A DNA stretch of 64,000 nucleotides from Novosphingobium barchaimii LL02 (GTDB taxonomy: Bacteria; Pseudomonadota; Alphaproteobacteria; Sphingomonadales; Sphingomonadaceae), in NCBI RefSeq assembly GCF_001046635.1, contig NZ_KQ130452.1:360668-424667 (forward strand), written 5' to 3'. Below the pieces are notes generated by a model. That model made no database searches. It had not been told where the DNA came from and saw nothing but the letters and a program-made list of their open reading frames with translations. Both the position numbers and the translations under genes were made by a program. Of this stretch, positions 4,304 to 38,781 are shown piece by piece. Position 1 is the first letter of the stretch; every line of letters starts with the position of its first letter.

Positions 4304-4892
4304 TCTGCAGGACGGACCTTTGGGCAAGCCCGCAGTCCCTGGACATGTGCAGGACGCCATCCGCACCCTGATCGAGTGGGCAGGCGACGACCCGACGCGC
4401 GAGGGTCTGGTCGACACACCCAAGCGCGTCGCGCGGGCATGGCTCGAATATTGCCAAGGCTACCAGGAAGACCCGGCGGTTCACCTTTCCCGCATTTTCG
4501 AGGAAGTGGGCGGCTACGATGAAGTTGTGCTGCTCAAGGACATTCCGTTCCAGTCGCACTGCGAGCATCACATGGCGCCGATCATCGGCAAGGCGGCGAT
4601 CGCCTATCTGCCGCGCGACCATGTGGTGGGCATCTCAAAGCTGGCACGTGTGCTGCACGGCTTTGCGCGCCGGTTACAAATCCAGGAACGCCTGACAGCC
4701 GAAGTCGCGCAGTGCATCTGGCAGCACCTAAAACCCCAGGGCGTGGCAGTGGTGATCGAGGCGAACCACGCCTGCATGACCGCGCGCGGCGTGCGTACGC
4801 CGGGTGTCAGCATGATCACCAGCCGGATGATGGGCACCTTCCTTGAGGACGAGCGTTCTCGCAAGGAAGTGCTCAGCCTGATGGGGTACTGA
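4272..4892 (+). CDS. folE: GTP cyclohydrolase I
   Basis: 206 residues. This enzyme makes 7,8-dihydroneopterin triphosphate from GTP, the first step of folate (and pterin) biosynthesis in the cytosol. The zinc-binding and catalytic signatures are present: C-E-H-H-M-A-P around residue 98, and a second Cys in the ACMTARGVR segment near residue 172. The helix VGISKLARVL is also typical. The N-terminal 20 residues are poorly conserved, as usual. AGAGGG immediately precedes the ATG. The start lies inside the phospholipase D-like gene, which suggests translational coupling, although no shared pathway is obvious. Confidence 0.97.
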   Translation: MSSLVGHDEDDLQDGPLGKPAVPGHVQDAIRTLIEWAGDDPTREGLVDTPKRVARAWLEYCQGYQEDPAVHLSRIFEEVGGYDEVVLLKDIPFQSHCEHHMAPIIGKAAIAYLPRDHVVGISKLARVLHGFARRLQIQERLTAEVAQCIWQHLKPQGVAVVIEANHACMTARGVRTPGVSMITSRMMGTFLEDERSRKEVLSLMGY

Positions 4893-4910
4893 TCTGCGAA
4901 AGAGGACGTG

Positions 4911-5372
4911 ATGGGACAGGCGCATGTTCTGGAAGGTGGCTGCCGCTGTGGGCAAGTGCGCTTTCAGTTGACGGCGCCGCCCCTGATCGAAAGCCTGTGC
5001 CACTGCTCGGGCTGCAAGCGGATGACCGCTAGCGCTTTCTCGACGACGATTTCCGTTCCCACCGAGGGGTTCGAGCTGGTTTCGGGGAAGCCCGAGGTAG
5101 GCGGTATTCATGGCGACGAGGCGCACCACCACCATTGCCCCTGGTGCAAGTCCTGGGTCTTCACAAAAGTCGACCCGTCCATGGGGTTCATCAATGTGCG
5201 CGCAACGCTGCTCGACGACCCGCGAGCGTTTTTACCTTACGTGGAAATGCAGGCAGCCGAAAAACTCTCTTGGCTCCATACCGAGGTGGAGCGCCGTTAT
5301 GATCGCTTCCCGCACCTGCACGAATATCCCGAACTCATCGCCGGCTACGCTGCATGGCGGGCTGCGCGTTAG
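4911..5372 (+). CDS. GFA-domain (CENP-V/GFA fold) zinc protein
   Basis: 153 residues of the glutathione-dependent formaldehyde-activating enzyme (GFA) fold. Zinc-ligand Cys pairs are visible: GGCRCGQVRF at the N-terminus, CHCSGCKR about 20 residues later, and CPWCKSWVF in the middle. Members act in glutathione-dependent detoxification or have unknown function; most have not been shown to process formaldehyde. It follows folE by 18 bases with AAAGAGGA upstream of the ATG at 4911, so it may be the last gene of the operon starting at 2660. A GTG one codon earlier is possible. Confidence 0.85.
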   Translation: MGQAHVLEGGCRCGQVRFQLTAPPLIESLCHCSGCKRMTASAFSTTISVPTEGFELVSGKPEVGGIHGDEAHHHHCPWCKSWVFTKVDPSMGFINVRATLLDDPRAFLPYVEMQAAEKLSWLHTEVERRYDRFPHLHEYPELIAGYAAWRAAR

Positions 5373-10800: not shown

Positions 10801-13158
10801 ATGGAATTCTCCCGCTTCCTGCCCGTTCTGATTGGCCTGCTGCTCGGCGCTTGGACCATGGCTGCCGCCTGGGCCGTGCTGGCCGCCCGCGCCCGGCAGA
10901 ACCGCGCCGAACATCAACTTCGTTCCGCCCGCCGTCTTGGCCGCATGGTCGAGGAATCTCCGGCGCTGCCTCTGCTGGTGCGCACCGATGGCCGGATCGA
11001 GGCCAGCCCGCGCCTTGGTCAGTGGCTGGGGCTGGACGGGGTGCCGCAATATCTTTCCGAACTCGATGGAAACGGGAAGGGCCTGCCTGCCGACAAGCTG
11101 GCCGAACTGACCGAAGCGGTGCGCCGTTGCCAGAAGACTGCCGCACCGTTCCGCATGGTGGCGACGCCCCACGGATCGAGCCGCAGCTTGGCCCTGCGCG
11201 GGCACCTTGCCGACCCGCAGGTATCCCCCGGCGGCGCGGCGATGGTCTGGGTCTTCGACTTCAGCGACAGCGAGACCGAACTCACCCGCCTGCGCGATGA
11301 AGCGGCCCGCGCGCGCGGCGATTTCCACGCGCTCGTCTCGCTGATCGAGGCCGCGCCGATGCCGATGTGGTTCCGCCGCCCGGACGGCGAACTGCAGCTG
11401 GTCAACCATGCCTATGTCGCGGCCGTGGGGGCTGAGAGCGCCGATGCGGTGGTCGCCAAGGGCACTGAATTGATCGAGGCGGTGGACGGCATCGCCCCCG
11501 GACACGTCGCGCGTCAGGCGATGGAAAAGGGCATCCCGATCGAGCGTATCGTCTCCACCACCATCGACGGCCAGCGCCGCGCCTTACGCGTTAGTGACCT
11601 GCCGCTGGGTGATGATGGGGTGGCAGGATATGCCGTCGACATCGAAGACCTTGAGGAAATGTCCCGCTCGTTCCGCGCCTTCCGCGAGGCGCAGCGCGCA
11701 TTGCTCGACCAGCTCTCCGCCGGTGTTGCTCAGTTCGACGCCAAGCGCCGCCTGACGTTCGCCAACCAGCCGTTCCAGCGCCTGTTCAAGCTGGATGGCC
11801 GCATCCTCGTCGATCCGCCTGCGTTCGAACGCCTGCTCGATGCCGCGCGCGATGCCGGGCGCGTGCCTGAGGTGCGCGATTTTCCGGCGTGGCGGCGCGA
11901 GAAGGCAGCATGGTTCTCCGCCGGCAGCACGCAGGAGGAGCCATGGGCGCTGGCGGACGGCACGCATTTGCGCATTGTCGCCCAGCCTGTCCCCGATGGC
12001 GGGTTGCTGCTCATTGTCGAGGATCGCACCGAACAGCTGCGACTTTCCGCCATGCGCGATACCCTGCTGCGAACCCGTACCGCCACGTTCGACAGCCTGT
12101 TCGAATCGATCGCGGTGTTTGCGCCCGATGGCCGGATGCAGATCTGGAACCGCCGCTTCGCCGCCGACTGGGGGCTGGAGAACGAGTTCCTCGACACCCA
12201 CCCCCATATCGAAGCGCTGCTTCGCAAGATCGCCTCGCGCCTGAAACGGCCGGTCGAGGCGGAAACGGTCGGCAACGTCGTGCGCGCCGCTACGCTCGAC
12301 CGCAACCAGACCGGCGGGCGCATCGCGCTGGCGGACGGACGAATGCTGGAATTTGCCGGGGTGCCGCTGCCTGATGGCAATGGCCTGCTGGCGGTGCTGG
12401 ACATCACCGATTCGCAAAAGGCCGAAGACGCCCTGCGCGAAAGCAACGCCGCACTGATAGAGGCGGATGCGATCAAGACCCGCTTCCTCGCCAACATGAG
12501 CAAGGAACTGCGCACTCCGCTGACCTCGATCGGCGGCTTTGCCGAGATGCTGGAAACTGGCCTCGGCGGCGATCTGAGCGATGCGGGCAAGGATTACGTC
12601 GTCTCGATCATCACCGCTTCGGCGCAGCTGGGCGAGCATATCGACAGCTTGCTCGATCTTTCGCAAAGCGAAGCGGGCCTGCTTCCGCTAAAGCTGGAGG
12701 AGATCGACCCGATGCCCTTCGTGCGCACCGTGGTGGAGGAGAGGGCAGGGCGGCTGCAGAAGGCGGGGCTGACACTGGACCTGCAGGCCAATGGCCTGAT
12801 GCGCCCGCTGGTGGCCGACCGCCGCCGGCTGGCGCGCGCCATCGGCCATATCGTCGACAACGCCATCGCCGCCTCGCCGCGCGGGGCCCGCGTGCTCGTC
12901 CATGTCTCGCGGCGCAAGTCGGCTGCAGGGGAGGATGTTGTGCGGATCGTGGTCCAGGACAAGGGCGCCGGGCTCGACAGCCGCAGTCTCGCCCGCGCGC
13001 TTGATGGCATGAAAGTAAGCGCCGACGGTAAAAGCGTGGACCGCCGCCAGGGCCTTGGCCTGCCGCTTGCCCGGCAGTTGGTGGAAGCGCACGGCGGATC
13101 GCTGCGCCTCGCTTCCGAGCCGGGCAAGGGCACCAGCGCGATCATCGAACTGCCATGA
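10801..13158 (+). CDS. divL: DivL-like pseudo-histidine kinase (PAS domains, HisKA without His)
   Basis: 785 residues. One N-terminal membrane helix (about 6-29) is followed by several PAS-like segments (roughly 45-165, 185-305, 310-430, 440-545), a HisKA dimerisation helix (about 555-620) and a HATPase domain (about 670-785). The H-box reads NMSKELRTPL: the phospho-accepting histidine is lysine 568. The ATP-binding parts are present: N-box (DNAIAAS), DKGAG near 720, and GLGLPLARQLVEAHGG. In Caulobacter DivL the histidine is replaced by tyrosine, and DivL acts as a kinase regulator in the CtrA/CckA cell-cycle pathway rather than as a normal kinase. Position next to tsaE, with a stop/start overlap, supports DivL. 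The symbol is by analogy. Confidence 0.75.
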   Translation: MEFSRFLPVLIGLLLGAWTMAAAWAVLAARARQNRAEHQLRSARRLGRMVEESPALPLLVRTDGRIEASPRLGQWLGLDGVPQYLSELDGNGKGLPADKLAELTEAVRRCQKTAAPFRMVATPHGSSRSLALRGHLADPQVSPGGAAMVWVFDFSDSETELTRLRDEAARARGDFHALVSLIEAAPMPMWFRRPDGELQLVNHAYVAAVGAESADAVVAKGTELIEAVDGIAPGHVARQAMEKGIPIERIVSTTIDGQRRALRVSDLPLGDDGVAGYAVDIEDLEEMSRSFRAFREAQRALLDQLSAGVAQFDAKRRLTFANQPFQRLFKLDGRILVDPPAFERLLDAARDAGRVPEVRDFPAWRREKAAWFSAGSTQEEPWALADGTHLRIVAQPVPDGGLLLIVEDRTEQLRLSAMRDTLLRTRTATFDSLFESIAVFAPDGRMQIWNRRFAADWGLENEFLDTHPHIEALLRKIASRLKRPVEAETVGNVVRAATLDRNQTGGRIALADGRMLEFAGVPLPDGNGLLAVLDITDSQKAEDALRESNAALIEADAIKTRFLANMSKELRTPLTSIGGFAEMLETGLGGDLSDAGKDYVVSIITASAQLGEHIDSLLDLSQSEAGLLPLKLEEIDPMPFVRTVVEERAGRLQKAGLTLDLQANGLMRPLVADRRRLARAIGHIVDNAIAASPRGARVLVHVSRRKSAAGEDVVRIVVQDKGAGLDSRSLARALDGMKVSADGKSVDRRQGLGLPLARQLVEAHGGSLRLASEPGKGTSAIIELP

Positions 13159-13598
13159 TCGCGCTGCCTGATCTTGCCGCGATGGACCGCCTTGGCCGTG
13201 CGATTGCCCAGGAACTGCGCGCCGGGGATGTCGTCGCGCTGACCGGCGGCCTTGGCACGGGCAAGACCACGCTCGCCCGCTCGATCATCGCCGGATTGGG
13301 GCATGAAGGCGAAGTGCCGTCGCCCAGTTTCTCCATCATCGAGCCCTACGATCCGCCCGGTGTTAGGCTGCCGCTGGTCCACGCAGACTTCTACCGCCTA
13401 AAGCATCCGGACGAGGCCCAGGAGATCGGTCTTGACGATTACCGCAACGGCGCCGCGCTCATCGCCGAGTGGCCCGATCACGCCGGCGGCTTCGCGCATG
13501 AGCCGGGCTGCCTTTCAATCACGCTGGAAGTTGCGGAAGAGGGCAGGATCGCCATTGTCGAAGGTGGGCCAGATTGGCTAGGGCGGATGCCACGATGA
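13155..13598 (+). CDS. tsaE: tRNA threonylcarbamoyladenosine biosynthesis ATPase TsaE
   Basis: 147 residues, the usual size. Walker A is GGLGTGKTT near residue 31; SPSFSI and HADFYRL follow, the latter belonging to the TsaE active site. It works with TsaB and TsaD to make t6A37 in ANN-decoding tRNAs. The ATG at 13155 overlaps the divL-like stop and the stop overlaps amgK, so translation is probably coupled along the operon. Confidence 0.96.
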   Translation: MIALPDLAAMDRLGRAIAQELRAGDVVALTGGLGTGKTTLARSIIAGLGHEGEVPSPSFSIIEPYDPPGVRLPLVHADFYRLKHPDEAQEIGLDDYRNGAALIAEWPDHAGGFAHEPGCLSITLEVAEEGRIAIVEGGPDWLGRMPR

Positions 13599-14611
13599 CG
13601 CAGAACACTGTCCCCTTGCCCGCCACGTCCCTGCCCGAGGGCGTCGACGCTTTCCTAGCCGCCGCCGGTTGGGGGGCTGCCGAGGTGGAGCCATTACCTG
13701 GTGACGCCTCGTTCCGGCGCTACTTCCGCGTGCGCAAGGCCAGCGGCGAAACCGCCATGCTGATGGACGCACCGCCGCCGAACGAAGACCCGGAACCGTA
13801 CTTGCGCGCGGCGCACTGGCTCGACGCCAACGGAATGCGGGCGCCGCATATCCTGGCGGAGAACGCAGCACGCGGTCTCGTTCTGATCGAGGATTTCGGC
13901 GAGGCGCGCATGCGCGACTACCTCGATCAGTGGCCGGATGACGAGCCTGCAATCTACGGCGCGGCTGTAGATGCGCTGACCAGGCTGCACCAGTTGCCGC
14001 CGGGGCCTTTCCGCGACTATTCGATGAGTGAGTACCAGCGCGAAGTGCGGCTGTTCATCGACTGGTACTGCACCGCGCAGAACCTTTACGTCGATGTCGC
14101 CGGTTTCGCTTCCGCCTGGGAATCGGTCATGGGCGAGCTTCTCGGCCGTCAGCGACAGAGCGGCGTCACCGTGCTGCGCGATTATCACGCAGAGAATATC
14201 ATGCTGCTCGGCAGTCTGGAAAAGCAGGGCCTGCTCGACTTCCAGGACGCTCTGGTGGGCCACCCGGCATACGATCTGGTGTCGCTGCTGCAGGACGCGC
14301 GCCGCGATGTCTCGCCCGAGCTGGAGGCGCAGATGTTCGACCATTACGTGCGCAAATCCGGCGCCGATGCCGATACATTCCTGGCCGATTACGCCCGCCT
14401 TGGCGCGCAGCGTAACATCAAGATCATCGGCATCTTCGTGCGCCTGTGGCGCCGTGACGGCAAGCCGCGCTACCTCGATCTGATCCCGCGCGTCTGGGCC
14501 ATGCTGGAGCGCGATCTCGCGCACCCGGCGCTTGGGCCGCTCGCGGCGTGGTTTGATTCGAACATTCCGGCCGCCCTGCGCGATGCCGACGGGGGCACTT
14601 TCGAGCGATGA
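13595..14611 (+). CDS. amgK: Anomeric MurNAc/GlcNAc kinase (phosphotransferase family)
   Basis: 338 residues from the ATG at 13595, which overlaps the tsaE stop (ATGA). It has the aminoglycoside-phosphotransferase fold. The catalytic loop L-R-D-Y-H-A-E-N-I-M and the metal-binding L-L-D-F-Q-D-A follow in the expected order. Pairing with a MurU-like nucleotidyltransferase immediately downstream identifies it as AmgK. In Pseudomonas putida, AmgK phosphorylates MurNAc (and GlcNAc) at C1, letting recycled wall sugar bypass MurA. A generic aminoglycoside kinase is unlikely given the context. Confidence 0.87.
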   Translation: MTQNTVPLPATSLPEGVDAFLAAAGWGAAEVEPLPGDASFRRYFRVRKASGETAMLMDAPPPNEDPEPYLRAAHWLDANGMRAPHILAENAARGLVLIEDFGEARMRDYLDQWPDDEPAIYGAAVDALTRLHQLPPGPFRDYSMSEYQREVRLFIDWYCTAQNLYVDVAGFASAWESVMGELLGRQRQSGVTVLRDYHAENIMLLGSLEKQGLLDFQDALVGHPAYDLVSLLQDARRDVSPELEAQMFDHYVRKSGADADTFLADYARLGAQRNIKIIGIFVRLWRRDGKPRYLDLIPRVWAMLERDLAHPALGPLAAWFDSNIPAALRDADGGTFER

Positions 14612-26593: not shown

Positions 26594-29353
<2,760 letters not shown>

Positions 29354-29628: not shown

Positions 29629-30045
29629 TCAGCAGGCCGGGACCAATCCTGCCTCGATCGCGGCGCGGACGCCTTCGGGCCACTCGACCGGGCGGTGGCT
29701 AACGAGGTCCATGCAGACCAGCACGACCTGCGCGCGCAAGCGTTCGCGCCCTTCGCCGGTGAACACAATGGAAATTCCGCAGGAAGTGCGGCCCAGGCGC
29801 TGGGGCGTGATGGTGATCTCAAGCCGGTCGCCAAGGCGGCTAGGCGAGACGAACTCGGTCTCCAGCTTCACGGTCGGCACGCCGATATCGTGCTTGAGAT
29901 GCATAGCCGCGAAATCGAGGCCCAGATCCTGCTCGAACCAATCCTCGACCGCACCGTTCAGCATCTCGAAGTAGCGCGGGTAGAAGACGATTCCCGCTGG
30001 ATCGACATCGGCGAAGCGCACCTGGGCGCGGGTGGTGAAGGGCAT
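29629..30045 (-). CDS. Hot-dog acyl-CoA thioesterase (4-hydroxybenzoyl-CoA thioesterase type)
   Basis: 138 residues. The motif V-R-F-A-D-V-D-P-A-G-I-V-F-Y-P-R-Y-F at residues 9-26 carries the catalytic Asp of the 4HBT/YbgC group. Likely hydrolyses an aryl- or acyl-CoA ester in the cytosol. It starts 11 bases after the marR gene and appears to be the last gene of the transcript that begins with the fused monooxygenase at 32954. That context suggests a job in releasing an aromatic or ring-derived acid from CoA, or in salvaging CoA when the pathway stalls. Confidence 0.88.
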   Translation of the reverse strand: MPFTTRAQVRFADVDPAGIVFYPRYFEMLNGAVEDWFEQDLGLDFAAMHLKHDIGVPTVKLETEFVSPSRLGDRLEITITPQRLGRTSCGISIVFTGEGRERLRAQVVLVCMDLVSHRPVEWPEGVRAAIEAGLVPAC

Positions 30046-30056
30046 CTTGGACTATC

Positions 30057-30584
30057 CTAGGCGATGGATGACTTGAGCTGGCTCAATAGGTCGAAGAGGT
30101 GGCGCTGGTTGGTTTCCGGGAACTCCGCGAGCGCCTCGCGGACCCAGCCGTGATGCGCTTCGGCCAGCGCGGAGAACTGGGCGCGGCCTTGCGGCGTCAG
30201 TGACACGATCGCCGAGCGGCCGTCGTCCGGGGCAGGGCGCGAATGGACGAGGCCCTGTTCCTGCAACTGGCGCACAATCGCGGTGACGTTGCCGTTCGAT
30301 ACCAGCAGTGCGCGCGACAGTTCGCCCATGCGCAGCCCGTCGGGGGCGCGGTCCAGGGTGGCCAGGATATCGAAGCGAGGCAGAGTGGTGCCGAACTGCT
30401 CCTCGAAATTGCGACGCAGACGCTTCTCGATGATTTTCGCGCAGTCGAGCAGACGCACCCAGACGCGCAGGTCCAGCGTGCTTGCAGATGCAGGTTTATC
30501 GGACTCGCCCATAGCCTCGAAAGCTCCTCTTTCGGGAGTTTCCATAGCGTCCGGCGCGAGCATGTCGATTCCTGCAAGGGACAT
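30057..30584 (-). CDS. MarR-family transcriptional regulator (first)
   Basis: 175 residues. Winged helix-turn-helix: LPRFDILATLDRAPDGLRMGELSRALLVSNGNVTAIVRQLQEQGLV, then the wing R-x-x-x-x-D-D-G-R-S-A with T-P-Q-G-R. An N-terminal stretch of about 35 residues before the fold is not conserved, so the true start may be one of the later ATGs. It lies between the monooxygenase and thioesterase genes on the same strand. By analogy with aromatic-degradation MarR proteins, an aryl-CoA could be its ligand. No palindrome like those at 32994 and 33564 is seen at its own start. Confidence 0.9.
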   Translation of the reverse strand: MSLAGIDMLAPDAMETPERGAFEAMGESDKPASASTLDLRVWVRLLDCAKIIEKRLRRNFEEQFGTTLPRFDILATLDRAPDGLRMGELSRALLVSNGNVTAIVRQLQEQGLVHSRPAPDDGRSAIVSLTPQGRAQFSALAEAHHGWVREALAEFPETNQRHLFDLLSQLKSSIA

Positions 30585-30662
30585 TTAACTGACCGTGTCT
30601 GCGATTAATCCGCCACCCCCGCGCAGGCTGGGAACTGCGTGAGGGTGACGGAACTGGTTGGC

Positions 30663-32954
30663 TCAGGCCCGGCCGCGCGCGGCGCGCAGTGCCATGGCCT
30701 GGCCTAGGCGGTAGGGAGGGGGCACCGGCTGTTCGTCATAGCCGGCTGCGGCGGCGGCGCGCAGCGTCCATACCGGGTCGAACAGGTGAGTGCGGCCAAG
30801 TGCGACGAGATCGGCGCGGCCGGCGGTCAGGATCGAGTTCACTTGGTCGGCGTCGGCGATGTTGCCCACGGCGATTGTGGGGACGCCCGCTTCGTTGCGG
30901 ATCTGGTCAGCAAAGGGGGTTTGGAACATCCGGCCATAGACGGGGCGACCTTCGGGAGCAGTCTCGCCAGCAGAGACATCAATAATATCGACGCCTGCTT
31001 CGCGCAGGCTGCGGGCGATTTCAACGGCCTCGGCAGGCGTGACACCGGCTTCGCCCACCCAGTCGTTTGCGGAGATACGTACAGCGAGCGGCTTGTCCTG
31101 CGGCCATGCGGCGCGCACGGCGCAGATGACGCGCAGCGGCAGGCGCATGCGGTTTTCGAGCGTGCCGCCGAACTCGTCATCGCGCTTGTTCATGACCGGG
31201 GTGATGAAGCTGGAAAGCAAGTTGCCGTGGCCAGCCTGTACTTCGAGCATGTCGAAACCGGCCTTGTCGGCGCGCACGGCCGTAGCGACGAACTGCTGGA
31301 CGATCAGGTCCATCTCGCGCGCTTCGAGCACCTTGGGCACGGTGCCGCCCTCACGCCACGGCCGCGCGCTGGCCGAGACGGTGGGCCAGGGTTTGTCCAG
31401 GGCTACGTCGTAGCCGGCGCCTTCGCCCGGAATCTTGCAGGCCGCGCGGGCACCGGAGTGGCCGATCTGGGCGCAGGTCTTCGCGGACGAATGTTTGTGG
31501 GCGAACTCGTTGAAGGCGGACCAGCGCTCGGCTTGACCGTCGTGCCACAGGCCGGGGCAGGCGGGGGTGGCGCGGCCTTCGGGGCTGACGGCGAGTAGTT
31601 CGGTGACGACGAGACCGGCCCCGCCCAGCGCGCGGGCGCCGTAGTGAACCGAGTGGAAATCCGTTGCATAGCCATCCGCGCTGGCGGAATACGTCAGCAT
31701 CGCCGGTATGACCACGCGGTTGGGAACTGTCATGCCGCGTAAGGTGTAGGGCGTGAACATCGGCTGCACCGGGGTGTCCTGATCCTCGTTACCGTTCCAG
31801 AACCAGCGCTCAAGGCCGGCCAGCCAGGCGGGATCGCGCAGGCGCAGGTTCTCGTGGCTGACGCGCTGCGAGCGGGTCATCAACGAGTAGGCGAACTGCG
31901 GCAGATCGAAACCGAGGTAACGGTCGAGAGTCTCGAACCATTCTGTGGAGTTTCGCGCAGAGTTTTGAATTTTAAGGACTTCGATGTGCCGCTCTGCTTG
32001 ATATTCGGCAAGCGCACCGGCCAGTTCCTCGCGGCCGGTGATGCCGGGGCGATCCAGAACCTGCGCCAGCTTTATTGCGTCTTCGAGTGCAAGTTTGGTG
32101 CCCGAACCAATTGAGAAATGGGCGGTGTGCGCGGCGTCTCCCAGCAGCACCACGTTGTCGAACGACCACTGGCGACAGATCACGCGGCGGAAGTTGATCC
32201 ATGCCGCCGAACCACGCAGGTGGGTTGCATTGGTGATGAGCGGATGGCCGTCCAGATGGCGGGCAAAGACCTTTTCGCAGAACGCGATCGAATCGGCCTG
32301 CTCCATCTTGTCGAGTCCAAGGCCTTCCCACGTCTCGGGTGAGCATTCGACGATGAAGGTCGAGTGCGTGGCATCGAAGCGGTAGGCGTGCGCCCAGATC
32401 CAGCCGTAGTCGGTGTTTTCAAAGATGAAGGCGAAGGCGTCGAACAGCTTGGTGGTGCCGAGCCACGAAAACTTGTTGCGCTTGGTGTCGATATCGACCT
32501 CGAACTTTTCGAGATTAGCGGTGCGAACCATTGAATTGATGCCGTCTGCGGCGACGATCAGGTCGAAATCGGCATAAGCCGAAAGGTCGGCGCTGAACAT
32601 CGTTTCGAAATGCATCACCACGCCCAGCTCGGCGGCGCGGGCCTGCAGGATCTGCAGCAGATGCTTGCGGCCGATGCCGATGAAGCCGTGGCCCGAAGAG
32701 GTGATGGTGTTTTCGCCCACGCTCACATCGATGTCGTCCCAGTGGGCGAAGCTGCCTGTGATGGTGGCGGCGCTGACCGGGTCGTTGGCCTCGAGGTTCG
32801 CCAGTGTCTGGTCCGAGAACACCACGCCCCAGCCGAACGTGTCGCCTGAGCGGTTACGCTCGAAGACGTGGATCTCGTGGCCGGGGTCGCGCAGCTTCAT
32901 CGAGATCGCGAAGTAGATACCGGCAGGTCCGCCGCCGAGACAGGCAATGCGCAT
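30663..32954 (-). CDS. Fused FAD monooxygenase / old-yellow-enzyme, 2-aminobenzoyl-CoA monooxygenase-reductase-like
   Basis: 763 residues in two parts. Residues 1-380 are a flavoprotein aromatic hydroxylase: GGGPAG near residue 7 for FAD, VAADGINS near 140, and LLGDAAHTAHFSIGSG near 275. Residues 395-763 are an old-yellow-enzyme barrel with AQIGHSGARA and the C-terminal LGRTHLFDP. This fusion is known as 2-aminobenzoyl-CoA monooxygenase/reductase of Azoarcus evansii, which hydroxylates and then reduces anthraniloyl-CoA. Database names for the same architecture include salicylyl-CoA 5-hydroxylase/oxidoreductase. The neighbouring isatin-hydrolase-like and keto-acid oxidoreductase genes favour the first. 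No CoA ligase lies nearby. Transcription starts at the operator near 32996. Confidence 0.86.
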   Translation of the reverse strand: MRIACLGGGPAGIYFAISMKLRDPGHEIHVFERNRSGDTFGWGVVFSDQTLANLEANDPVSAATITGSFAHWDDIDVSVGENTITSSGHGFIGIGRKHLLQILQARAAELGVVMHFETMFSADLSAYADFDLIVAADGINSMVRTANLEKFEVDIDTKRNKFSWLGTTKLFDAFAFIFENTDYGWIWAHAYRFDATHSTFIVECSPETWEGLGLDKMEQADSIAFCEKVFARHLDGHPLITNATHLRGSAAWINFRRVICRQWSFDNVVLLGDAAHTAHFSIGSGTKLALEDAIKLAQVLDRPGITGREELAGALAEYQAERHIEVLKIQNSARNSTEWFETLDRYLGFDLPQFAYSLMTRSQRVSHENLRLRDPAWLAGLERWFWNGNEDQDTPVQPMFTPYTLRGMTVPNRVVIPAMLTYSASADGYATDFHSVHYGARALGGAGLVVTELLAVSPEGRATPACPGLWHDGQAERWSAFNEFAHKHSSAKTCAQIGHSGARAACKIPGEGAGYDVALDKPWPTVSASARPWREGGTVPKVLEAREMDLIVQQFVATAVRADKAGFDMLEVQAGHGNLLSSFITPVMNKRDDEFGGTLENRMRLPLRVICAVRAAWPQDKPLAVRISANDWVGEAGVTPAEAVEIARSLREAGVDIIDVSAGETAPEGRPVYGRMFQTPFADQIRNEAGVPTIAVGNIADADQVNSILTAGRADLVALGRTHLFDPVWTLRAAAAAGYDEQPVPPPYRLGQAMALRAARGRA

Positions 32955-32993
32955 GGAAGGCCTCCTAAGAATGTTTCAGGCCTAAACTAATAT

Positions 32994-33009
32994 GGTTGCA
33001 AGTGCAAGT
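32994..33009. promoter_or_regulatory. MarR-type operator before the monooxygenase gene
   Basis: GGTTGCAAGTGCAAGT contains the half-site pair TTGCA-AG-TGCAA, 40 bases upstream of the monooxygenase start. The same TTGCA-N2-TGCAA pattern recurs at 33564-33579 in the other divergent promoter of the cluster. Confidence 0.65.
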
Positions 33010-33057
33010 TGTTCGTTTAGCGAAGGGTGCGGGTCTCGAAGCGCCGGGCGAGCGCTT

Positions 33058-33522
33058 TCAATCCAAGTTGTCGTGGAGGCGGCCGAGCATATCCAGCATT
33101 CGCGTGAAATCGGTCGCAGAGAAACCGCGGATGATCTTTTCGTATAAAGGCGCCGTTACCAGACGCGCTGCCGCCAGCTTGTCGCGGCCTTCGTGTGTCA
33201 GCGCGATTTCGGTCACGCGGCCATCGGTATCGCTAGGGGCCGTAGCTACTAGGCCGGCCTTGGACATGCGCTCGACGATGCGCATCATGGTCGAGAGGTT
33301 GATGACCGCCGACTTGGCCACCTGGCCGATGGCGAGCGGGGCATGCTCGCCCAAAATCATCAGGACGCGCCAAGTGGGGATGTCGATCCCGATACCGCGA
33401 AGCTCCGACTCGATTGCCACGTTGTACCGACTCGCTGCCCGGTTGAGCAGGTAGAAGGGGTAGGCATCGAGGCGGAAATCTTCCGACCCGGGGTTACCAA
33501 AAGGGCGCAAATCCTCGCTCAT
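33058..33522 (-). CDS. MarR-family transcriptional regulator (second)
   Basis: 154 residues from the ATG at 33522, chosen because GGAG lies 6 bases before it. An ATG 11 codons upstream has no ribosome site and would place the operator 8 bases from the start. Winged-helix core: DIPTWRVLMILGEHAPLAIGQVAKSAVINLSTMMRIVERMSKAGLV, with the wing SDTDGRVTEIALT. It is flanked on both sides by the TTGCA-N2-TGCAA palindromes and divides the two halves of the catabolic cluster. It is therefore the best candidate for the cluster repressor, with autoregulation through 33564-33579. Confidence 0.92.
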   Translation of the reverse strand: MSEDLRPFGNPGSEDFRLDAYPFYLLNRAASRYNVAIESELRGIGIDIPTWRVLMILGEHAPLAIGQVAKSAVINLSTMMRIVERMSKAGLVATAPSDTDGRVTEIALTHEGRDKLAAARLVTAPLYEKIIRGFSATDFTRMLDMLGRLHDNLD

Positions 33523-33563
33523 CCCAAGCTCCAGACGGGTCTCCCGCCACTCCATGACATTTT

Positions 33564-33579
33564 AGTTGCATATGCAACT
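33564..33579. promoter_or_regulatory. MarR-type operator between marR and the cyclase operon
   Basis: AGTTGCATATGCAACT is a perfect 16-bp palindrome in the gap between the second marR gene and the divergent cyclase gene. It shares the TTGCA-N2-TGCAA core with 32994-33009. It could control both divergent transcripts. Confidence 0.78.
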
Positions 33580-33625
33580 TAATCGGATAGTCTTCGCGTA
33601 ATGGTCCGAAAAGGAGCCCAAGTCC

Positions 33626-34402
33626 ATGACAGACGTTCTCGCCCCCTTCGCACAGGCACTCGTTGCCGGTGACATCACCGTTGTCGACCTCACTCAGATC
33701 CTTTCCGAAGACACCCCGCTGCTGGTGCTCCCCGAACCTTTTGGCCAGACGGCCGCCTTCTCACGCGAGGAAATCTCGCGCTATGACGAGCGCGGTGTCG
33801 CCTGGCACTGGAACAATTTCACGGTGGGCGAGCATACCGGCACGCACTTCGATGCGCCGGTGCACTGGGTCTCGGGCAAGGACCTGGCGGACAACACGGT
33901 CGACTTAGTGCCCGCGCAGAAGCTGATTGCGCCTGCCGTCGTGTTGGACTTTTCGGCCGAATGCGCCGCCGATGCCGACTTCCTCCTCAAGGCCGACCAC
34001 ATCAAGGCGTGGGAAGCAGTCCATGGCGCCATCCCCTCCGGCGCCTGGGTGCTGTTCCGAACCGACTGGTCGAAGCGCCAAGTGGACGACTACACCAACC
34101 GCCGCGAGGACGGTGCGCACACGCCAGGCCCTGACGCCTGCGCGATCCGCTATATCGTCGAGGAGCGCGACGTGCTGGGCTTCGGTGTCGAGACGATCGG
34201 CACCGATGCGGGTCAGGCGCATATGCTCGACCCCATGTACCCGGCGCACACGCTGCTTCACGGCGCGGGTAAGTATGGCCTCCAATGCCTTGAAAATCTT
34301 GATAAGCTGCCGGCGACCGGGGCGGTGGTGATCGCCGCTCCGCTCAAGATCCTTGGCGGCTCTGGCAGTCCGCTGCGCGTCCTCGCGCTCGTCTCGGAGT
34401 AA
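33626..34402 (+). CDS. Cyclase-family metal-dependent hydrolase, isatin hydrolase-like
   Basis: 258 residues, AAGGAG before the ATG. The family metal-binding motif H-T-G-T-H-F-D-A-P-V-H-W is at about residues 71-82. Members open cyclic amides or N-formyl groups; kynurenine formamidase KynB is shorter (about 210), whereas isatin hydrolases are about 260-275. The length and the neighbouring keto-acid oxidoreductase and aminobenzoyl-CoA-type monooxygenase favour isatin to isatinate. It starts an operon with the two oxidoreductase subunits (6-base gap) under the palindrome at 33564. Kynurenine formamidase or another cyclic-amide hydrolase remains possible. Confidence 0.84.
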   Translation: MTDVLAPFAQALVAGDITVVDLTQILSEDTPLLVLPEPFGQTAAFSREEISRYDERGVAWHWNNFTVGEHTGTHFDAPVHWVSGKDLADNTVDLVPAQKLIAPAVVLDFSAECAADADFLLKADHIKAWEAVHGAIPSGAWVLFRTDWSKRQVDDYTNRREDGAHTPGPDACAIRYIVEERDVLGFGVETIGTDAGQAHMLDPMYPAHTLLHGAGKYGLQCLENLDKLPATGAVVIAAPLKILGGSGSPLRVLALVSE

Positions 34403-34408
34403 GGGCAG

Positions 34409-36553
34409 ATGGCGGAGCGTTCCTTCAAGAAAGAAGTCACGAAGCTGACCGCGGGTGAGGGCGAGACCTTCACCGGTGAGGGCATTCTGGCGGTTACGAA
34501 GGCACTGTTGCAGTCCGGCGTCGCTTATGTCGGCGGCTACCAGGGGTCGCCGATCAGCCACCTGATGGACGTCTTCGCCGACGCCAACGACCTTCTCGAA
34601 AGCCTCGGAGTTCATTTCGAGGCCAGCGCCTCGGAAGCGACGGCGGCGGCGATGCTGGCGGCCTCGGTCAATTACCCGCTGCGCGGCGCCGTAGCGTGGA
34701 AGTCGGTGGTGGGCACCAATGTGGCATCGGATGCGCTGTCGAACGTCGCCTCGGGCGGCGTTACCGGCGGCGCGCTGATCATCGTGGGCGAGGATTACGG
34801 CGAAGGCTCCTCGATCATGCAGGAGCGTACTCACGCTTTCGCGATGAAGTCGCAGATGTGGCTGATCGATCCGCGTCCGAACCTGCCCAGCATCGTCGAT
34901 TCGGTGGAGCAGGCGTTTCGTCTTTCCGAAGCCTCGAACACCCCGGTCATGCTTCAGCTGCGCGTGCGCTCGTGTCACATGACCGGATCGTTCGTGGCCA
35001 AGGACAATGTGCGCCCGCCGCTGACCGTGGGCGAGGCCGCGGCCCATCCCGTTCGCGATACCGACCGCATCGTGCTGCCGCCGGCGAACTTCCTCCACGA
35101 AGTCGAGAAGATCGAGAAGCGCTGGCCCGCAGGCATCGCCTATGTTCGCGACAACAAGCTGAACGAGTGGTTCGGCCCGGAAGAGACGGGTGAGGGCATT
35201 GGCCTGATCGTTCAGGGCGGGCTCTACAACAATCTCAACCGCGCGATGGAATTGATCGGGCTGGCCGACGCTTACGGCGAGAGCAAGTTGCCGATCTACT
35301 GCATGAACGTGGCCTACCCGGTGATCCCCGAGGAAGTGGCCGAGTTCTGCAGGAACAAGAAAGCCGTTCTCATCCTTGAGGAAGGCCAGCCGGAGTTCAT
35401 CGAGCACGAGCTGAACACGCTGGTCCGCCGGGCAGGGCTCGACACCCGGATCGTCGGCAAGGACACCATGCCGCGTTCGGGCGAATACACGGCCGAGGTG
35501 ATCCGCAAGGGCCTCGCCAAATTCCTCGCCGACCATGCACCGGCGCTGGCGCCCGAACTGGAAGCGGCGAACCCGTTGCCGGCTCCGGTCGCCAAGGAAA
35601 TCCCGCAGCGCCCCGCCGGTTTCTGCACCGGCTGCCCAGAGCGTCCGATCTTCACCGCGATGAAGCTGGTGGAGCGCGAACTGGGTCCGACACACGTTTC
35701 GGCGGACATCGGCTGTCACCTGTTCTCGATCCTGCCGCCTTTCAATATCGGCAATACGACAATGGGCTATGGCCTTGGCGCGGCGGGTGCATCGGCGTTC
35801 AAGCCCAAGGAAGGTGAGGGCTCCAAGCGGTCCATCGCCATCATGGGCGACGGCGGTTTCTGGCATAACGGCCTGACGTCCGGCATCGGCAATGCGGTGT
35901 TCAACAAGGACGACGGCGTCACCATCATCATCGACAACGGCTATTCCGCCGCTACCGGCGGGCAGGACATCCTGTCCTCTCGCGCGGACAACAAGAACCG
36001 CGTGACCCGCAACCTCATCACCAAGGCCGTGCGCGGCGTTGGTGCGAAGTGGGTGCGCGAGACCACGCGGACCTACGACGTGCCCAAGATGCGCGACATG
36101 TTGCGCGAAGCGCTGACTACTCCTGAAAAGGGGCCGAAGGTGATCGTCGCGCAATCCGAATGCATGCTCAACCTGCAACGCCGCGACAAGAAGGTGAAGG
36201 CCGCCGCGCTAAAGGCCGGGGAGCGTGTGGTGCGCGAACGCTTCGGTGTCGACGCCGACACCTGCACCGGCGATCACAGCTGCATCCGCCTGTCAGGCTG
36301 CCCTTCGCTGACGATCAAGCCCAACCCCGACCCGCTGCGGCAGGACCCGGTGGCGCACGTCGAGAACTCCTGCGTGGGTTGTGGCCTGTGCGGGGAGGTC
36401 AGCCATGCCGCCGTGCTGTGCCCCAGCTTTTACCGTGCGCATATCGTTGCCAATCCGGGCAAGTTGGAGCGGTTCAAGGCGAAGATCAGCGGCGCGATCA
36501 TCGCCCGCTGGCAGGCCAGCGCCGAGCGTGAGCGCGTGGCGCGGGCGTTCTGA
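34409..36553 (+). CDS. Indolepyruvate ferredoxin oxidoreductase-like alpha subunit
   Basis: 714 residues. N-terminal pyrimidine-binding domain (GYQGSPISHLMD near residue 42), then a TPP-binding domain (CTGCPERPIF near 408 and GDGGFWHNG near 483). The C-terminal iron-sulfur domain has CTGDHSC-x6-C and CVGCGLC-x8-C cysteine sets, enough for two [4Fe-4S] clusters. Such enzymes decarboxylate 2-oxo acids to acyl-CoA with ferredoxin. In this operon the 2-oxo acid could be isatinate (2-aminophenylglyoxylate), giving 2-aminobenzoyl-CoA. That assignment is inference; indolepyruvate or phenylglyoxylate-type acids are alternatives. Confidence 0.88.
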   Translation: MAERSFKKEVTKLTAGEGETFTGEGILAVTKALLQSGVAYVGGYQGSPISHLMDVFADANDLLESLGVHFEASASEATAAAMLAASVNYPLRGAVAWKSVVGTNVASDALSNVASGGVTGGALIIVGEDYGEGSSIMQERTHAFAMKSQMWLIDPRPNLPSIVDSVEQAFRLSEASNTPVMLQLRVRSCHMTGSFVAKDNVRPPLTVGEAAAHPVRDTDRIVLPPANFLHEVEKIEKRWPAGIAYVRDNKLNEWFGPEETGEGIGLIVQGGLYNNLNRAMELIGLADAYGESKLPIYCMNVAYPVIPEEVAEFCRNKKAVLILEEGQPEFIEHELNTLVRRAGLDTRIVGKDTMPRSGEYTAEVIRKGLAKFLADHAPALAPELEAANPLPAPVAKEIPQRPAGFCTGCPERPIFTAMKLVERELGPTHVSADIGCHLFSILPPFNIGNTTMGYGLGAAGASAFKPKEGEGSKRSIAIMGDGGFWHNGLTSGIGNAVFNKDDGVTIIIDNGYSAATGGQDILSSRADNKNRVTRNLITKAVRGVGAKWVRETTRTYDVPKMRDMLREALTTPEKGPKVIVAQSECMLNLQRRDKKVKAAALKAGERVVRERFGVDADTCTGDHSCIRLSGCPSLTIKPNPDPLRQDPVAHVENSCVGCGLCGEVSHAAVLCPSFYRAHIVANPGKLERFKAKISGAIIARWQASAERERVARAF

Positions 36554-36560
36554 AAATGAC

Positions 36561-36587
36561 GTCGTCCCGGACCTGATCCGGGACGAC
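36561..36587. repeat. Inverted dispersed repeat between the two oxidoreductase subunit genes
   Basis: A perfect 11-bp stem (GTCGTCCCGGA / TCCGGGACGAC) with loop CCTGA. Units with a CCCGGA-CCTGA-TCCGGG core are scattered in alphaproteobacterial intergenic DNA. Here the unit sits inside an operon, so it may form an mRNA hairpin affecting the ratio or stability of the two messages. Confidence 0.8.
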
Positions 36588-36621
36588 GATAAAAACAAAT
36601 CTCCTGATGCGAGACACAGCT

Positions 36622-38094
36622 ATGACCACCGCTCCTAACCAGAACCGCCTGACGATCGCCATCCTCGCCCTGGGGGGGCAGGGAGGCGGCGTGCTGGCAG
36701 ACTGGATTCAGGAAGTCGCCCGCGCCGAGGGGTGGATGGCGCAGGGCACTTCGGTCCCCGGCGTCGCACAGCGCACCGGATCGACCGTCTATTACGTCGA
36801 ACTGGCAAAGCCTGACGGCTCGGGTCGTTTGCCGGTGATGGCGCAGATGCCGATGCCCGGCGATGTCGATGTGGTGGTCGCCTCGGAACTGATGGAAACG
36901 GGGCGCGCGCTGCTGCGCGGGTTCTCCACCGCCCACCGTACCACGCTGGTCGGCTCTACCCACCGCATTTATGCCATCGGCGAAAAGCAGGCGATGGGCG
37001 ATGGGCGCGGCAACGGCGAGAAGATCATCGAGGCCGCACACCAGCGCTCCAAGCGTTTCGTAGGGTTCGACATGGAAGCGGCGACCGAGCGCTCGGGCAG
37101 CGTTATCAGTGCGATCATGTTCGGCGCACTGGCGGGCAGCGGCGCCCTGCCGTTCCCGACCGAGACGTTCCGCAAGGCCATCGAACACAGCGGCATCGCG
37201 GTGAAAAGCAACCTCAACGGCTTCCAGGAAGGCTTCGATCAGGCGCAGGCCCCTGTCGCCATGCCGGTCGAGGACGTCCACGAAGTTCCGGTTCCCACCA
37301 CGGTTCGGGGCCGCGAACTGGCTGCGCGCATCACTGCCGCGCTACCGGTCCCCGCGCATGTCAACGCACTGCATGGTGTTGCCAGGCTAATGGATTATCA
37401 GGACGGCGACTATGCCGCGCTTTACCTCGATCGTCTGGAAACGGTCGCCGCGCTCGATGCCGCGCCGTTCGAGATGACGGCGGAGACCGCCCGCCACCTA
37501 GCGCTCTGGATGGGTTACGAGGACACCATCCGCGTTGCTGACCTCAAGACGCGCGGCAGCCGCATCGCCCGCGTGCGCGGCGAAGTGAAGGCGCAGGATG
37601 ACCAGATCCTCTCGATTACCGAATTCATGCACCCGCGCCTGCAGGAAGTGTGCGAGACGCTGCCTGCCGGAATCGGTCGTAAAATCCTTGGCAGCAATCG
37701 AATGACGGACCTGCTGGGACGCTTCTTCACGCAAGGCCGTCATGTCGAGACGACTGGCCTGCGCTGGTTCCTGGCGCTGCGCGCTCTGGCGAAGATGCGT
37801 GGGATGCGCCCCCGTTCGCTGCGCTACGTCGAGGAGCAGGAGCGCATCGAGGGGTGGCTTGAACTGGTGCGCAGCCAAGCTCCCCTTGACCTTGGCGTCG
37901 CGCTGGAGTTGGTCAAGTGCCAGCGCCTGATCAAGGGCTACGGCGATACCTTCGAGCGGGGACTTGCGAATTACGAGCGCATCGTTGCCGAACACCGCCG
38001 CTCACCGCGCGGTGCGGGCGAAATCCGTCGTCTGCGCGATCTTGCTCTGGCGGATGACAAGTCGGTCGCGTTCGTCGAGGCGCTTGCCGGCTGA
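36622..38094 (+). CDS. Indolepyruvate ferredoxin oxidoreductase-like beta subunit with C-terminal extension
   Basis: 490 residues from ATG 36622 (another ATG lies 5 codons earlier). The N-terminal gamma-type domain has LALGGQGGGVLADWI and GTSVPGVAQRTGSTVYYVE, typical of the catalytic gamma domain of 2-oxoacid:acceptor oxidoreductases. Residues from about 215 form a mostly helical extension with SRIARVRGEV and KILGSNRM, found in long aerobic-proteobacterial IorB proteins. It pairs with the preceding alpha subunit, and the 68-base gap holds the repeat at 36561. Probably part of the same transcript. Confidence 0.87.
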   Translation: MTTAPNQNRLTIAILALGGQGGGVLADWIQEVARAEGWMAQGTSVPGVAQRTGSTVYYVELAKPDGSGRLPVMAQMPMPGDVDVVVASELMETGRALLRGFSTAHRTTLVGSTHRIYAIGEKQAMGDGRGNGEKIIEAAHQRSKRFVGFDMEAATERSGSVISAIMFGALAGSGALPFPTETFRKAIEHSGIAVKSNLNGFQEGFDQAQAPVAMPVEDVHEVPVPTTVRGRELAARITAALPVPAHVNALHGVARLMDYQDGDYAALYLDRLETVAALDAAPFEMTAETARHLALWMGYEDTIRVADLKTRGSRIARVRGEVKAQDDQILSITEFMHPRLQEVCETLPAGIGRKILGSNRMTDLLGRFFTQGRHVETTGLRWFLALRALAKMRGMRPRSLRYVEEQERIEGWLELVRSQAPLDLGVALELVKCQRLIKGYGDTFERGLANYERIVAEHRRSPRGAGEIRRLRDLALADDKSVAFVEALAG

Positions 38095-38154: not shown

Positions 38155-38781
38155 TCAGTCCGAAGTCTGTGGCTCCGCAGCCGGTGGCGGCGGCGGAATA
38201 TCGACCTTGATCTCCACTCGCCGGTTCTTCGTCCGCCCTTCGAGATCGTCGCTGCCATCGAGCTTGCGATTGGGCGCAATGGGGCGGCTTTCGCCGAGCG
38301 GGATCACGGTGATCCGGGCTTTCGCCACGCCCTTGCTTTCGAGGTAATCCCGCGCAGCTTCGGCGCGTCGACGCGAGGCGGCGAGGTTTTCCGCATCGGA
38401 GCCGCGCGAATCGCTGTGGCCCCAGATCGTGATCGGGCCGCCAGCCAGAAACGTGGGGCTGGTCATCAATCCGTCGATCAGCGCCGTGCCTGCCTCGTCC
38501 GGCTTGGCGCCTTTCGCAGGGTACGGGACGACGACCTGCACGGGTTCCAGCACCGGCGCATCTGTCGGCCCGGCATCCACCTCGGCACGGATGATCGATT
38601 TCTTGACGATGGTATCGTCAGCTTCCGGCTCTGCCATGACGCTGCGCGGGGCATCCGTGGCAACAGCCTCGGTCGCGTCGCCGCCGGTGGGCTGGCCTGG
38701 CTGGCAGCCGGCCAGCAGCAACGGCGCCGCGACTAGGGCGGCAGGCGCCAGAATGTAAGGGATTGCTGGCAGGCCTCTCAT
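38155..38781 (-). CDS. OmpA-family lipoprotein
   Basis: 208 residues. Lipoprotein signal peptide ending in L-L-A-G-C near residue 26, a Pro/Asp-rich linker, then an OmpA-like peptidoglycan-binding domain: GHSDSRGSDAENLAASRRRAEAARDYL and the C-terminal GRTKNRRVEI. Expected to tether the outer membrane to the cell wall. The C-terminus is a Pro/Ala-rich tail. Its ATG overlaps the stop of the upstream antiporter gene (ATGA), implying co-translation. Confidence 0.92.
   Translation of the reverse strand: MRGLPAIPYILAPAALVAAPLLLAGCQPGQPTGGDATEAVATDAPRSVMAEPEADDTIVKKSIIRAEVDAGPTDAPVLEPVQVVVPYPAKGAKPDEAGTALIDGLMTSPTFLAGGPITIWGHSDSRGSDAENLAASRRRAEAARDYLESKGVAKARITVIPLGESRPIAPNRKLDGSDDLEGRTKNRRVEIKVDIPPPPPAAEPQTSD

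Follow-up and report, generated by a model that had tools for sequence, protein, structure and literature searches.

Related systems

In anaerobic Thauera and Azoarcus, phenylglyoxylate:acceptor oxidoreductase converts an aryl glyoxylate and CoA to the aroyl-CoA and CO2, the chemistry that we propose here for IorA/IorB, a protein pair encoded in a seven-gene cluster of Novosphingobium barchaimii LL02. The cluster lies at 29629-38094 of a 64-kb stretch (contig NZ_KQ130452.1, positions 360,668 to 424,667 of the forward strand), hereafter the window, and further encodes a predicted isatin hydrolase (IH), a flavoprotein of the 2-aminobenzoyl-CoA monooxygenase/reductase (ACMR) type, an acyl-CoA thioesterase (TE) and two MarR regulators (Table 1). 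The anaerobic enzyme, set apart here by description, differs from IorA/IorB in its subunit make-up, and unlike it IorA/IorB apparently occur in aerobic bacteria and would act on an ortho-amino substrate. Taken as a whole, the cluster probably encodes an isatin catabolic pathway with a ring-cleavage lower route, a new assembly of known enzyme families of which the assignments of IorA/IorB and of an associated cupin group are the key points.

In the aerobic pathway of Azoarcus evansii, a fusion flavoenzyme of the ACMR family, alike by description, acts on 2-aminobenzoyl-CoA (PMC4539516, PMC3534580). That pathway uses a ligase, whereas in the window the CoA ester would arise by oxidative decarboxylation and ring cleavage is predicted to follow thioester hydrolysis. 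The 'gentisate' route of Alcaligenes In3 and Nocardia opaca, leading from isatin or anthranilate to 5-hydroxyanthranilate (Claus and Kutzner 1983; Cain 1968; via PMC6221969, PMC4539516), resembles our proposal in its 5-hydroxyanthranilate and gentisate-type ring cleavage; here candidate genes are at hand, and the chemistry would involve an amide rather than gentisate. The role of isatin and the functional gene of the gentisate branch were listed as unsolved in a 2018 review (PMC6221969).

The auxin (indole-3-acetic acid) locus iad of Variovorax, Bradyrhizobium and Achromobacter has in common with the window the IorA/IorB pair (iadA/iadB), an IH-like cyclase (iadI) and MarR, while the window instead carries ACMR and TE and starts at isatin. 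Conway et al. (2022, PMC9613470) treated iorB/iadB and iotA/iadA as markers exclusive to iad-like operons and, in an iad strain, found isatin, isatinic acid and anthranilate. The window itself was rejected as an iad locus: references for the Rieske beta subunit iadE and for the side-chain genes iadF (ligase), iadG (thiolase) and iadH (short-chain dehydrogenase/reductase, SDR) gave no match in its 64 kb at E <= 1e-10, iadD not being among the queries. A literature search that covered few subscription journals found no paper linking isatin or isatinate to a role of IorA/IorB and none naming a 5-hydroxyanthranilate dioxygenase gene. IorA/IorB were already known as an iad locus marker, and the isatinate role and a cupin-linked ACMR clade are the new elements proposed here.

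Isatin hydrolase and the entry into the proposed pathway

The cyclase of the cluster was most similar in the PDB to isatin hydrolases, which made up its best four matches (341 to 270 bits), compared with 27 bits for the best kynurenine formamidase (KynB); against 5nnb, at 341 bits, 149 of 250 aligned residues were identical. Isatin hydrolases have been characterized by the Mn ligands His69, His73 and Asp75 together with Gln219, a relay of His79, His207 and Asp193, a pocket of Trp59, Trp61, Trp80 and Tyr204, and a GLQC or GLAS motif at the place of I(L/I)E in KynB (Sommer et al. 2018, PMC6117287). In an ungapped alignment to 5nna and 5nnb, all 11 of the published residues checked were conserved in the window protein, including the aromatic WxW pocket and the complete relay, and GLQC was present. 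The first-pass annotation of this DNA had named grouping with KynB as what would count against isatin hydrolysis, and these matches and residues place the protein on the other side: judged by its sequence, the window cyclase is an isatin hydrolase. It is alike to LaIHA and RsIHA (5nna, 5nnb, 5nmp) in sequence, Mn ligands, proton relay, WxW and GLQC, with no notable difference between the proteins, and is seen here in its gene context.

Our survey of 298 genomes of the Sphingomonadaceae (family of the related Novosphingobium Leaf2) revealed a strict association of this hydrolase with IorA. Orthologues were called at 332 bits for IH, at E <= 1e-60 for IorA and at E <= 1e-150 with at least 45% identity for ACMR; the bit-score thresholds for IH, cupin and TE were chosen after the score gaps had been seen (332/144, 668/465 and 139.7/115.8 bits). 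While any IH match at E <= 0.001 occurred in 95 of the 298 genomes, true orthologues were confined to 33, and IorA was found in exactly the same 33 (Fisher 1.2e-44, kinship ignored). In 31 of them IH directly preceded IorA in the same orientation, with gaps of 7-144 nt, the two exceptions being G062, where the genes lie on separate contigs, and G125, where IH lies 6.8 kb downstream. By their identical genome sets and adjacency, IH and IorA appear to behave as one unit. ACMR, present in 55 of the 298 genomes, accompanied IH and IorA in 33 out of 33. Among the 80 nearest IorA loci of the genome collection, IH was found within the available flanks in 46, corresponding to 36 of 49 loci with full flanks, and among the 40 full-flank loci not listed as sphingomonads, 27 had it within about 10 kb; four full-flank loci had none of IH, ACMR, cupin and Rieske beta subunit.

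IorA and IorB carry the features of a 2-oxoacid:acceptor oxidoreductase, namely a thiamine pyrophosphate (TPP) domain with the GDG...N motif, Fe-S cysteines and a POR gamma domain, the motif and the 11 cysteines examined in IorA being invariant in 21 of 21 aligned rows. IorB scored 650 bits against NF006179 (cut-off 348) and matched both PF01558 and PF20169. For IorA, phmmer found no relatives in the PDB at 1e-3, and a profile search returned only distant TPP enzymes and pyruvate:ferredoxin oxidoreductase. As IH yields a 2-oxo acid, the IorA/IorB family is CoA-acylating and ACMR uses 2-aminobenzoyl-CoA, the simplest reading is that isatin is hydrolyzed to isatinate (2-aminophenylglyoxylate, an aryl 2-oxo acid), from which IorA/IorB, the proposed CoA-acylating isatinate dehydrogenase, would produce 2-aminobenzoyl-CoA by oxidative decarboxylation in the presence of CoA. 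We consider this upper pathway, advanced already in the first-pass annotation, to be likely in view of the identity of IH, the linkage of IH and IorA and the constant presence of ACMR beside them.

A CoA ester formed by oxidative decarboxylation would make an ATP-consuming CoA ligase unnecessary, and the absence of a ligase from the cluster, remarked upon earlier, extends to the whole window, in which tblastn with two AMP-forming references from Sulfitobacter (L082) gave no match at E <= 1e-10. A benzoate-CoA-ligase-family protein encoded beside ACMR in G302, used as query against the 55 ACMR genomes (E <= 1e-100), had a match in 11 of the 33 with IH and IorA and in 15 of the 22 without IH (Fisher 0.012, kinship ignored). 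Divided by presence of the cupin discussed below, the same matches fell to 0 of 14 cupin-positive and 26 of 41 cupin-negative genomes (Fisher 1.8e-5, kinship ignored); an anthranilate ligase from a different subfamily would escape this search, and the match in G258, among the 26, is partial.

A recent preprint on Variovorax (2025, PMC12633357) assigned roles to iadC-J, with IadI perhaps a broad-specificity amidase, and described strong accumulation of C8H7NO3 and C7H7NO only when iadC-K2 was present in a strain from which the entire locus had been removed. Isatinic acid has the formula C8H7NO3 (PMC8383072). The words iadA and iadB are missing from the main text of the preprint; if IadA/IadB are absent from the iadC-K2 strain, as we infer from the naming, build-up of isatinate would fit the role proposed for IorA/IorB. 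The mutants of a Pseudomonas LY1 study, which has an iadA/iadB nomenclature of its own, were left out of the evidence.

Plasmids provide some further contexts of IorA. On plasmid 3 of Variovorax PBS-H4 from linuron-contaminated soil (L085), a conjugative plasmid, IorA (12001-14349) lies between IS1071 copies, and equal-score matches on plasmids of Hydrogenophaga and others suggest, by scores alone, recent transfer. On a plasmid of Sulfitobacter mediterraneus (L086, 7420-15686), IorA and IorB lie with an IH-like cyclase that is 49% identical to its nearest reference, two FAD-dependent oxidoreductases and an ABC transporter, and this stretch has no ACMR or cupin, perhaps representing another isatin context in marine bacteria.

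Proposed ring cleavage and lower pathway

In the proposed lower pathway ACMR would hydroxylate 2-aminobenzoyl-CoA at C5 and, in the clade of the window protein, release the aromatic 5-hydroxy-2-aminobenzoyl-CoA, the proposed substrate of TE, which would free 5-hydroxyanthranilate from it. Formation of 5-hydroxyanthraniloyl-CoA by ACMR has been described under limiting NADH (PMC3534580, citing Langkau 1990). In relatives, a cupin of the gentisate dioxygenase family would split 5-hydroxyanthranilate between C1 and C2 to maleamoylpyruvate, a fumarylacetoacetate hydrolase family (FAH) enzyme would convert this to pyruvate and maleamate, and a C-N hydrolase would deamidate maleamate to maleate, to which some bacteria would add a maleate isomerase forming fumarate. 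Since cleavage of a 2-amino acid would give an amide, maleamoylpyruvate, the presence of a nitrilase-family hydrolase in the set would be explained; the isomerase step is the weak link of the proposed chemistry. In the window organism the cupin part would have to sit elsewhere in the genome or be missing.

The cupin orthologue (at least 668 bits) was present in 15 of the 298 genomes, 13 of them with IH and IorA and 14 with ACMR, and TE of the window type (at least 139 bits) was found in 14 of these 15 genomes versus 2 of the 283 others. In a quick maximum-likelihood tree of 68 ACMR rows, the window protein fell into a 16-row clade (SH-aLRT 100) in which all 14 labelled rows, that is 12 searched genomes and L002 and L005, labelled from their own loci, were cupin-positive, L007 being unlabelled; four rows with both cupin and IH (L084, L037, G089, G225) were placed outside it. 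The neighbourhoods of ACMR in cupin-positive genomes (n = 14) contained a C-N hydrolase in 12 cases, FAH in 11 and a flavin-reductase-like protein and the cupin itself in 10 each, none of which occurred in the 41 cupin-negative ones. Conversely, enoyl-CoA hydratase (31 of 41 versus 2 of 14), RidA-family protein (PF01042; 25 versus 3), acyl-CoA dehydrogenase (18 versus 2) and SDR (16 versus 2) adjoined ACMR mostly in cupin-negative genomes. The clustering of neighbours was coarse, grouping only 45 of the 55 ACMR genes, so that these counts are lower bounds. The different gene sets of the two kinds of neighbourhood suggest that the pathway divides after ACMR into a ring-cleavage route and an Azoarcus-like beta-oxidation route, and from the clade of the window ACMR and the type of its TE we place the window cluster on the former, although no cupin was found in its 64 kb.

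Complete or nearly complete gene sets were found in several bacteria. On a plasmid of Caballeronia SBC1 (L084), IorA, IorB, TE, ACMR, cupin, FAH, C-N hydrolase, an Asp/Glu racemase-like protein, MarR and IH form one run; its cupin scored 563 bits against PDB 3bu7 and fell below the NCBIfam cut-offs for gentisate and 5-aminosalicylate dioxygenases, and the closest match of the racemase-like protein was the maleate cis-trans isomerase 4fq7 (343 bits). A single stretch of Pseudomonas gessardii (L037) carries IH, IorA, IorB, TE, ACMR, cupin, FAH and C-N hydrolase, in Novosphingobium L001, L002 and L005 cupin and FAH adjoin the seven genes of the window type, and TE, FAH and cupin lie beside IorA/IorB in the Bradyrhizobium iad loci L035, L039, L049 and L053, with C-N hydrolase in three of the four. 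Where the flanks of IH and IorA lacked the cupin, it was located farther off in three of four relatives (G003, on the same contig; G006, on another contig; pSA1) and was absent from the fourth, G005. The C-N hydrolase of the Leaf2 type occurred in 12 of the 15 cupin-positive genomes (best copies 68-79% identical, Leaf2 itself aside), and in the remaining three a diverged copy adjoined either the cupin (G125, G154) or the isomerase (G225). Outside the sphingomonads, six of seven whole genomes with IorA/IorB and cupin had a full-length ACMR away from the locus (51-71% identical to that of Caballeronia), as did the megaplasmid of Ruegeria pomeroyi DSS-3; in two plasmid-only records with IorA/IorB and cupin ACMR was not found. 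On this megaplasmid (L165) the cupin (3797-4921) lies in a cluster with IorA/IorB, TE, FAH, C-N hydrolase and Asp/Glu racemase and contains the 364 residues of 3bu7 exactly. Hence, the natural substrate of 3bu7, deposited as gentisate 1,2-dioxygenase, may be 5-hydroxyanthranilate.

A flavin-reductase-like protein (PF01613, about 212 aa; L001:1330-1971, L158:17100-17741, L159:405-1025) goes with C-N hydrolase and cupin in 10 of the 14 cupin-positive ACMR loci and possibly replaces the maleate isomerase step. In G230 and G017 (L156 and L157, the families being searched in L156 only), the interval that separates the cupin/ACMR part from IH encodes a hydantoinase/oxoprolinase, an amidohydrolase, a DAO oxidase, a RidA-family protein and a TonB receptor, possibly representing an upstream N-heterocycle pathway. 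Genes supplying isatin were looked for in eight regions from related genomes, of which four (G230, G017, G251, G063) separate or flank the cupin/ACMR and IH-IorA parts, and no consistent candidate emerged; Pfam assignment of ten proteins from two stretches gave DAO-type oxidases, TonB receptor, hydantoinase/oxoprolinase, amidohydrolase and DUF885.

Several observations weigh against the pathway as proposed. References for cupin, FAH and C-N hydrolase had no match in the window, and the cupin is missing from 20 of the 33 IH-IorA genomes, many of them beta-oxidation-like, so that the lower route is not universal. Two cupin-negative genomes also carry window-type TE, two cupin-positive ones (G154, G231) have neither IH nor IorA, a strong match to maleate isomerase was obtained in only 2 of the 15 cupin-positive sphingomonads, plus two cupin-negative ones, and Ruegeria sp. 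G306 has IorA/IorB, TE and cupin with no ACMR at E <= 1e-40. As to the upper part, only 3 of the 40 full-flank loci beyond the 14 sphingomonad-listed ones had IH as the immediate upstream neighbour of IorA. According to PMC12633357, a plasmid carrying iadC-K2 fully restored anthranilate in the Variovorax strain deleted for the whole locus, which implies another way from isatinate to anthranilate and that IadA/IadB, if they lie outside iadC-K2 as named, may not be obligatory there; the preprint also puts IadI downstream of C8H7NO2, a formula that does not match isatin.

An alternative is the same upper pathway joined to a lower pathway of the Azoarcus type, in which ACMR dearomatizes its substrate to 2-amino-5-oxocyclohex-1-enecarbonyl-CoA, beta-oxidation-like enzymes encoded elsewhere complete the degradation, and TE does no more than relieve CoA traps. 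The cupin-negative IH-IorA genomes, the beta-oxidation-like genes that adjoin ACMR in many cupin-negative loci and the lack of a cupin in the window speak in its favour, whereas the window ACMR and TE are both of the cupin-associated kind and the near relatives L001, L002 and L005 hold cupin and FAH beside the same seven genes. Since TE and the window type of ACMR track the ring-cleaving cupin, the lower pathway is probably not that of Azoarcus, and we regard the latter as unlikely for this cluster. On balance, these associations incline us slightly towards a ring-cleavage lower pathway operating in the window organism. That isatin is degraded by an aerobic pathway unreported so far, through a ligase-free oxidoreductase, 5-hydroxyanthranilate and cupin cleavage to maleate (and fumarate), is put forward tentatively, at a little less than an even chance.

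Alternative functions of the cluster

The subunit names given by NCBI, and a score of 282 bits against the indolepyruvate:ferredoxin oxidoreductase alpha model TIGR03336, would agree with IorA/IorB being a true indolepyruvate (arylpyruvate) oxidoreductase to which IH is a mere neighbour serving another indole branch. This is improbable, as the score is far under the cut-off of 651, IH and IorA share their genome sets and position, and L001, L037 and L084 keep IH, IorA/IorB and ACMR without the auxin genes searched for. Equally doubtful is a detoxification module, which would convert isatin via 2-aminobenzoyl-CoA to anthranilate by means of TE, with no growth on the ring: ring-cleavage genes were indeed not found in the window, and anthranilate is the end product reported for the Variovorax iad, but ACMR would then serve no purpose, and relatives attach ring-cleavage or beta-oxidation genes. 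An assignment of the cyclase to kynurenine formamidase, with the cluster as part of tryptophan-kynurenine degradation, which the family-level annotation and a match to the arylformamidase model TIGR03035 might evoke, was rejected as extremely improbable, since that match reaches 30 bits versus a cut-off of 223 and the PDB scores, GLQC and WxW agree with isatin hydrolase.

Gene organization and regulation

All seven genes of the cluster are intact, the enzyme types and the two MarR regulators noted at first pass are borne out by NCBIfam and Pfam, and the start of IorB set there at 36622 proved to be an internal ATG in the frame of a longer open reading frame (ORF). The ACMR protein scored 1125.5 bits (cut-off 1078) over residues 1-755 against NF006101, 'bifunctional salicylyl-CoA 5-hydroxylase/oxidoreductase', as expected of a full-length fusion, and its presumed substrate 2-aminobenzoyl-CoA follows from gene context. 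Pfam assigned Cyclase to IH, TPP_enzyme_C to IorA, POR and DUF6537 to IorB, 4HBT_2 to TE and MarR to both regulators.

Table 1. Features of the isatin cluster and its flanking genes (window positions).
Feature	Position	Strand	Length	Description	Basis
secA	26594-29353			flanking gene	ORF
TE	29629-30045	-	138 aa	hot-dog (4HBT_2/YbgC-like) acyl-CoA thioesterase	ORF, NCBIfam/Pfam
MarR2	30057-30584	-		MarR-family regulator	ORF, NCBIfam/Pfam
ACMR	30663-32954	-	763 aa	FAD monooxygenase/OYE fusion, salicylyl-CoA 5-hydroxylase / 2-aminobenzoyl-CoA monooxygenase-reductase family	
MarR1	33058-33555	-		MarR-family regulator, divergent to IH	ORF, NCBIfam/Pfam
Palindrome	33564-33579		16 bp	AGTTGCATATGCAACT, perfect, between MarR1 and IH; candidate MarR operator	
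IH	33626-34402	+	258 aa	predicted Mn-dependent isatin hydrolase, cyclase family, GLQC type	
IorA	34409-36553	+	714 aa	alpha subunit (TPP, Fe-S) of 2-oxoacid:acceptor oxidoreductase	
IorB	36607-38094	+	495 aa	POR domain + DUF6537 subunit of the same oxidoreductase	
OmpA-family gene	38155-38781	-		flanking gene	ORF

The G+C content of the cluster is similar to that of the surrounding DNA, and the genes around it resemble housekeeping genes, judged from the ORF lists with no search made, and therefore it appears as a compact catabolic cluster, not a piece of a large catabolic region. The nearest relatives found are Novosphingobium, with IorA identities of 88% in Leaf2 and 92% in N. resinovorum pSA1; the OmpA-family gene on the right had a match in only one of six relatives.

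When up to 3 mismatches were allowed, the palindrome between MarR1 and IH was the sole match in the window, with 0.08 expected. Its 14-bp core, at up to 1 mismatch, occurred six times in the 2.89 Mb searched, a total in which overlapping loci are counted repeatedly. All six copies (window, L002, L004, L005, L006, L083) separate this MarR from IH, and a more diverged version was seen in L001. It is thus a candidate MarR operator marking a promoter, and MarR1 probably represses the divergent promoter at this site. The sequence data support the assignment of IH and the associations among the genes, whereas all steps that follow the opening of isatin are inferred, as is the ligand to which the regulators respond.

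Implications

Isatin stands at the junction of indole and auxin breakdown. Candidates are proposed here for the enzymes that act on isatinate and for the gentisate-branch genes, gene association giving specific and testable substrates for IorA/IorB, the ACMR clade, TE and the cupin. If the proposed pathway is true, the 'gentisate' branch of indole and anthranilate breakdown would gain the genes that it has lacked, the crystallized 3bu7 of Ruegeria would become a 5-hydroxyanthranilate dioxygenase, and the automatic names indolepyruvate oxidoreductase, salicylyl-CoA hydroxylase and cupin or gentisate dioxygenase would be corrected for these proteins.

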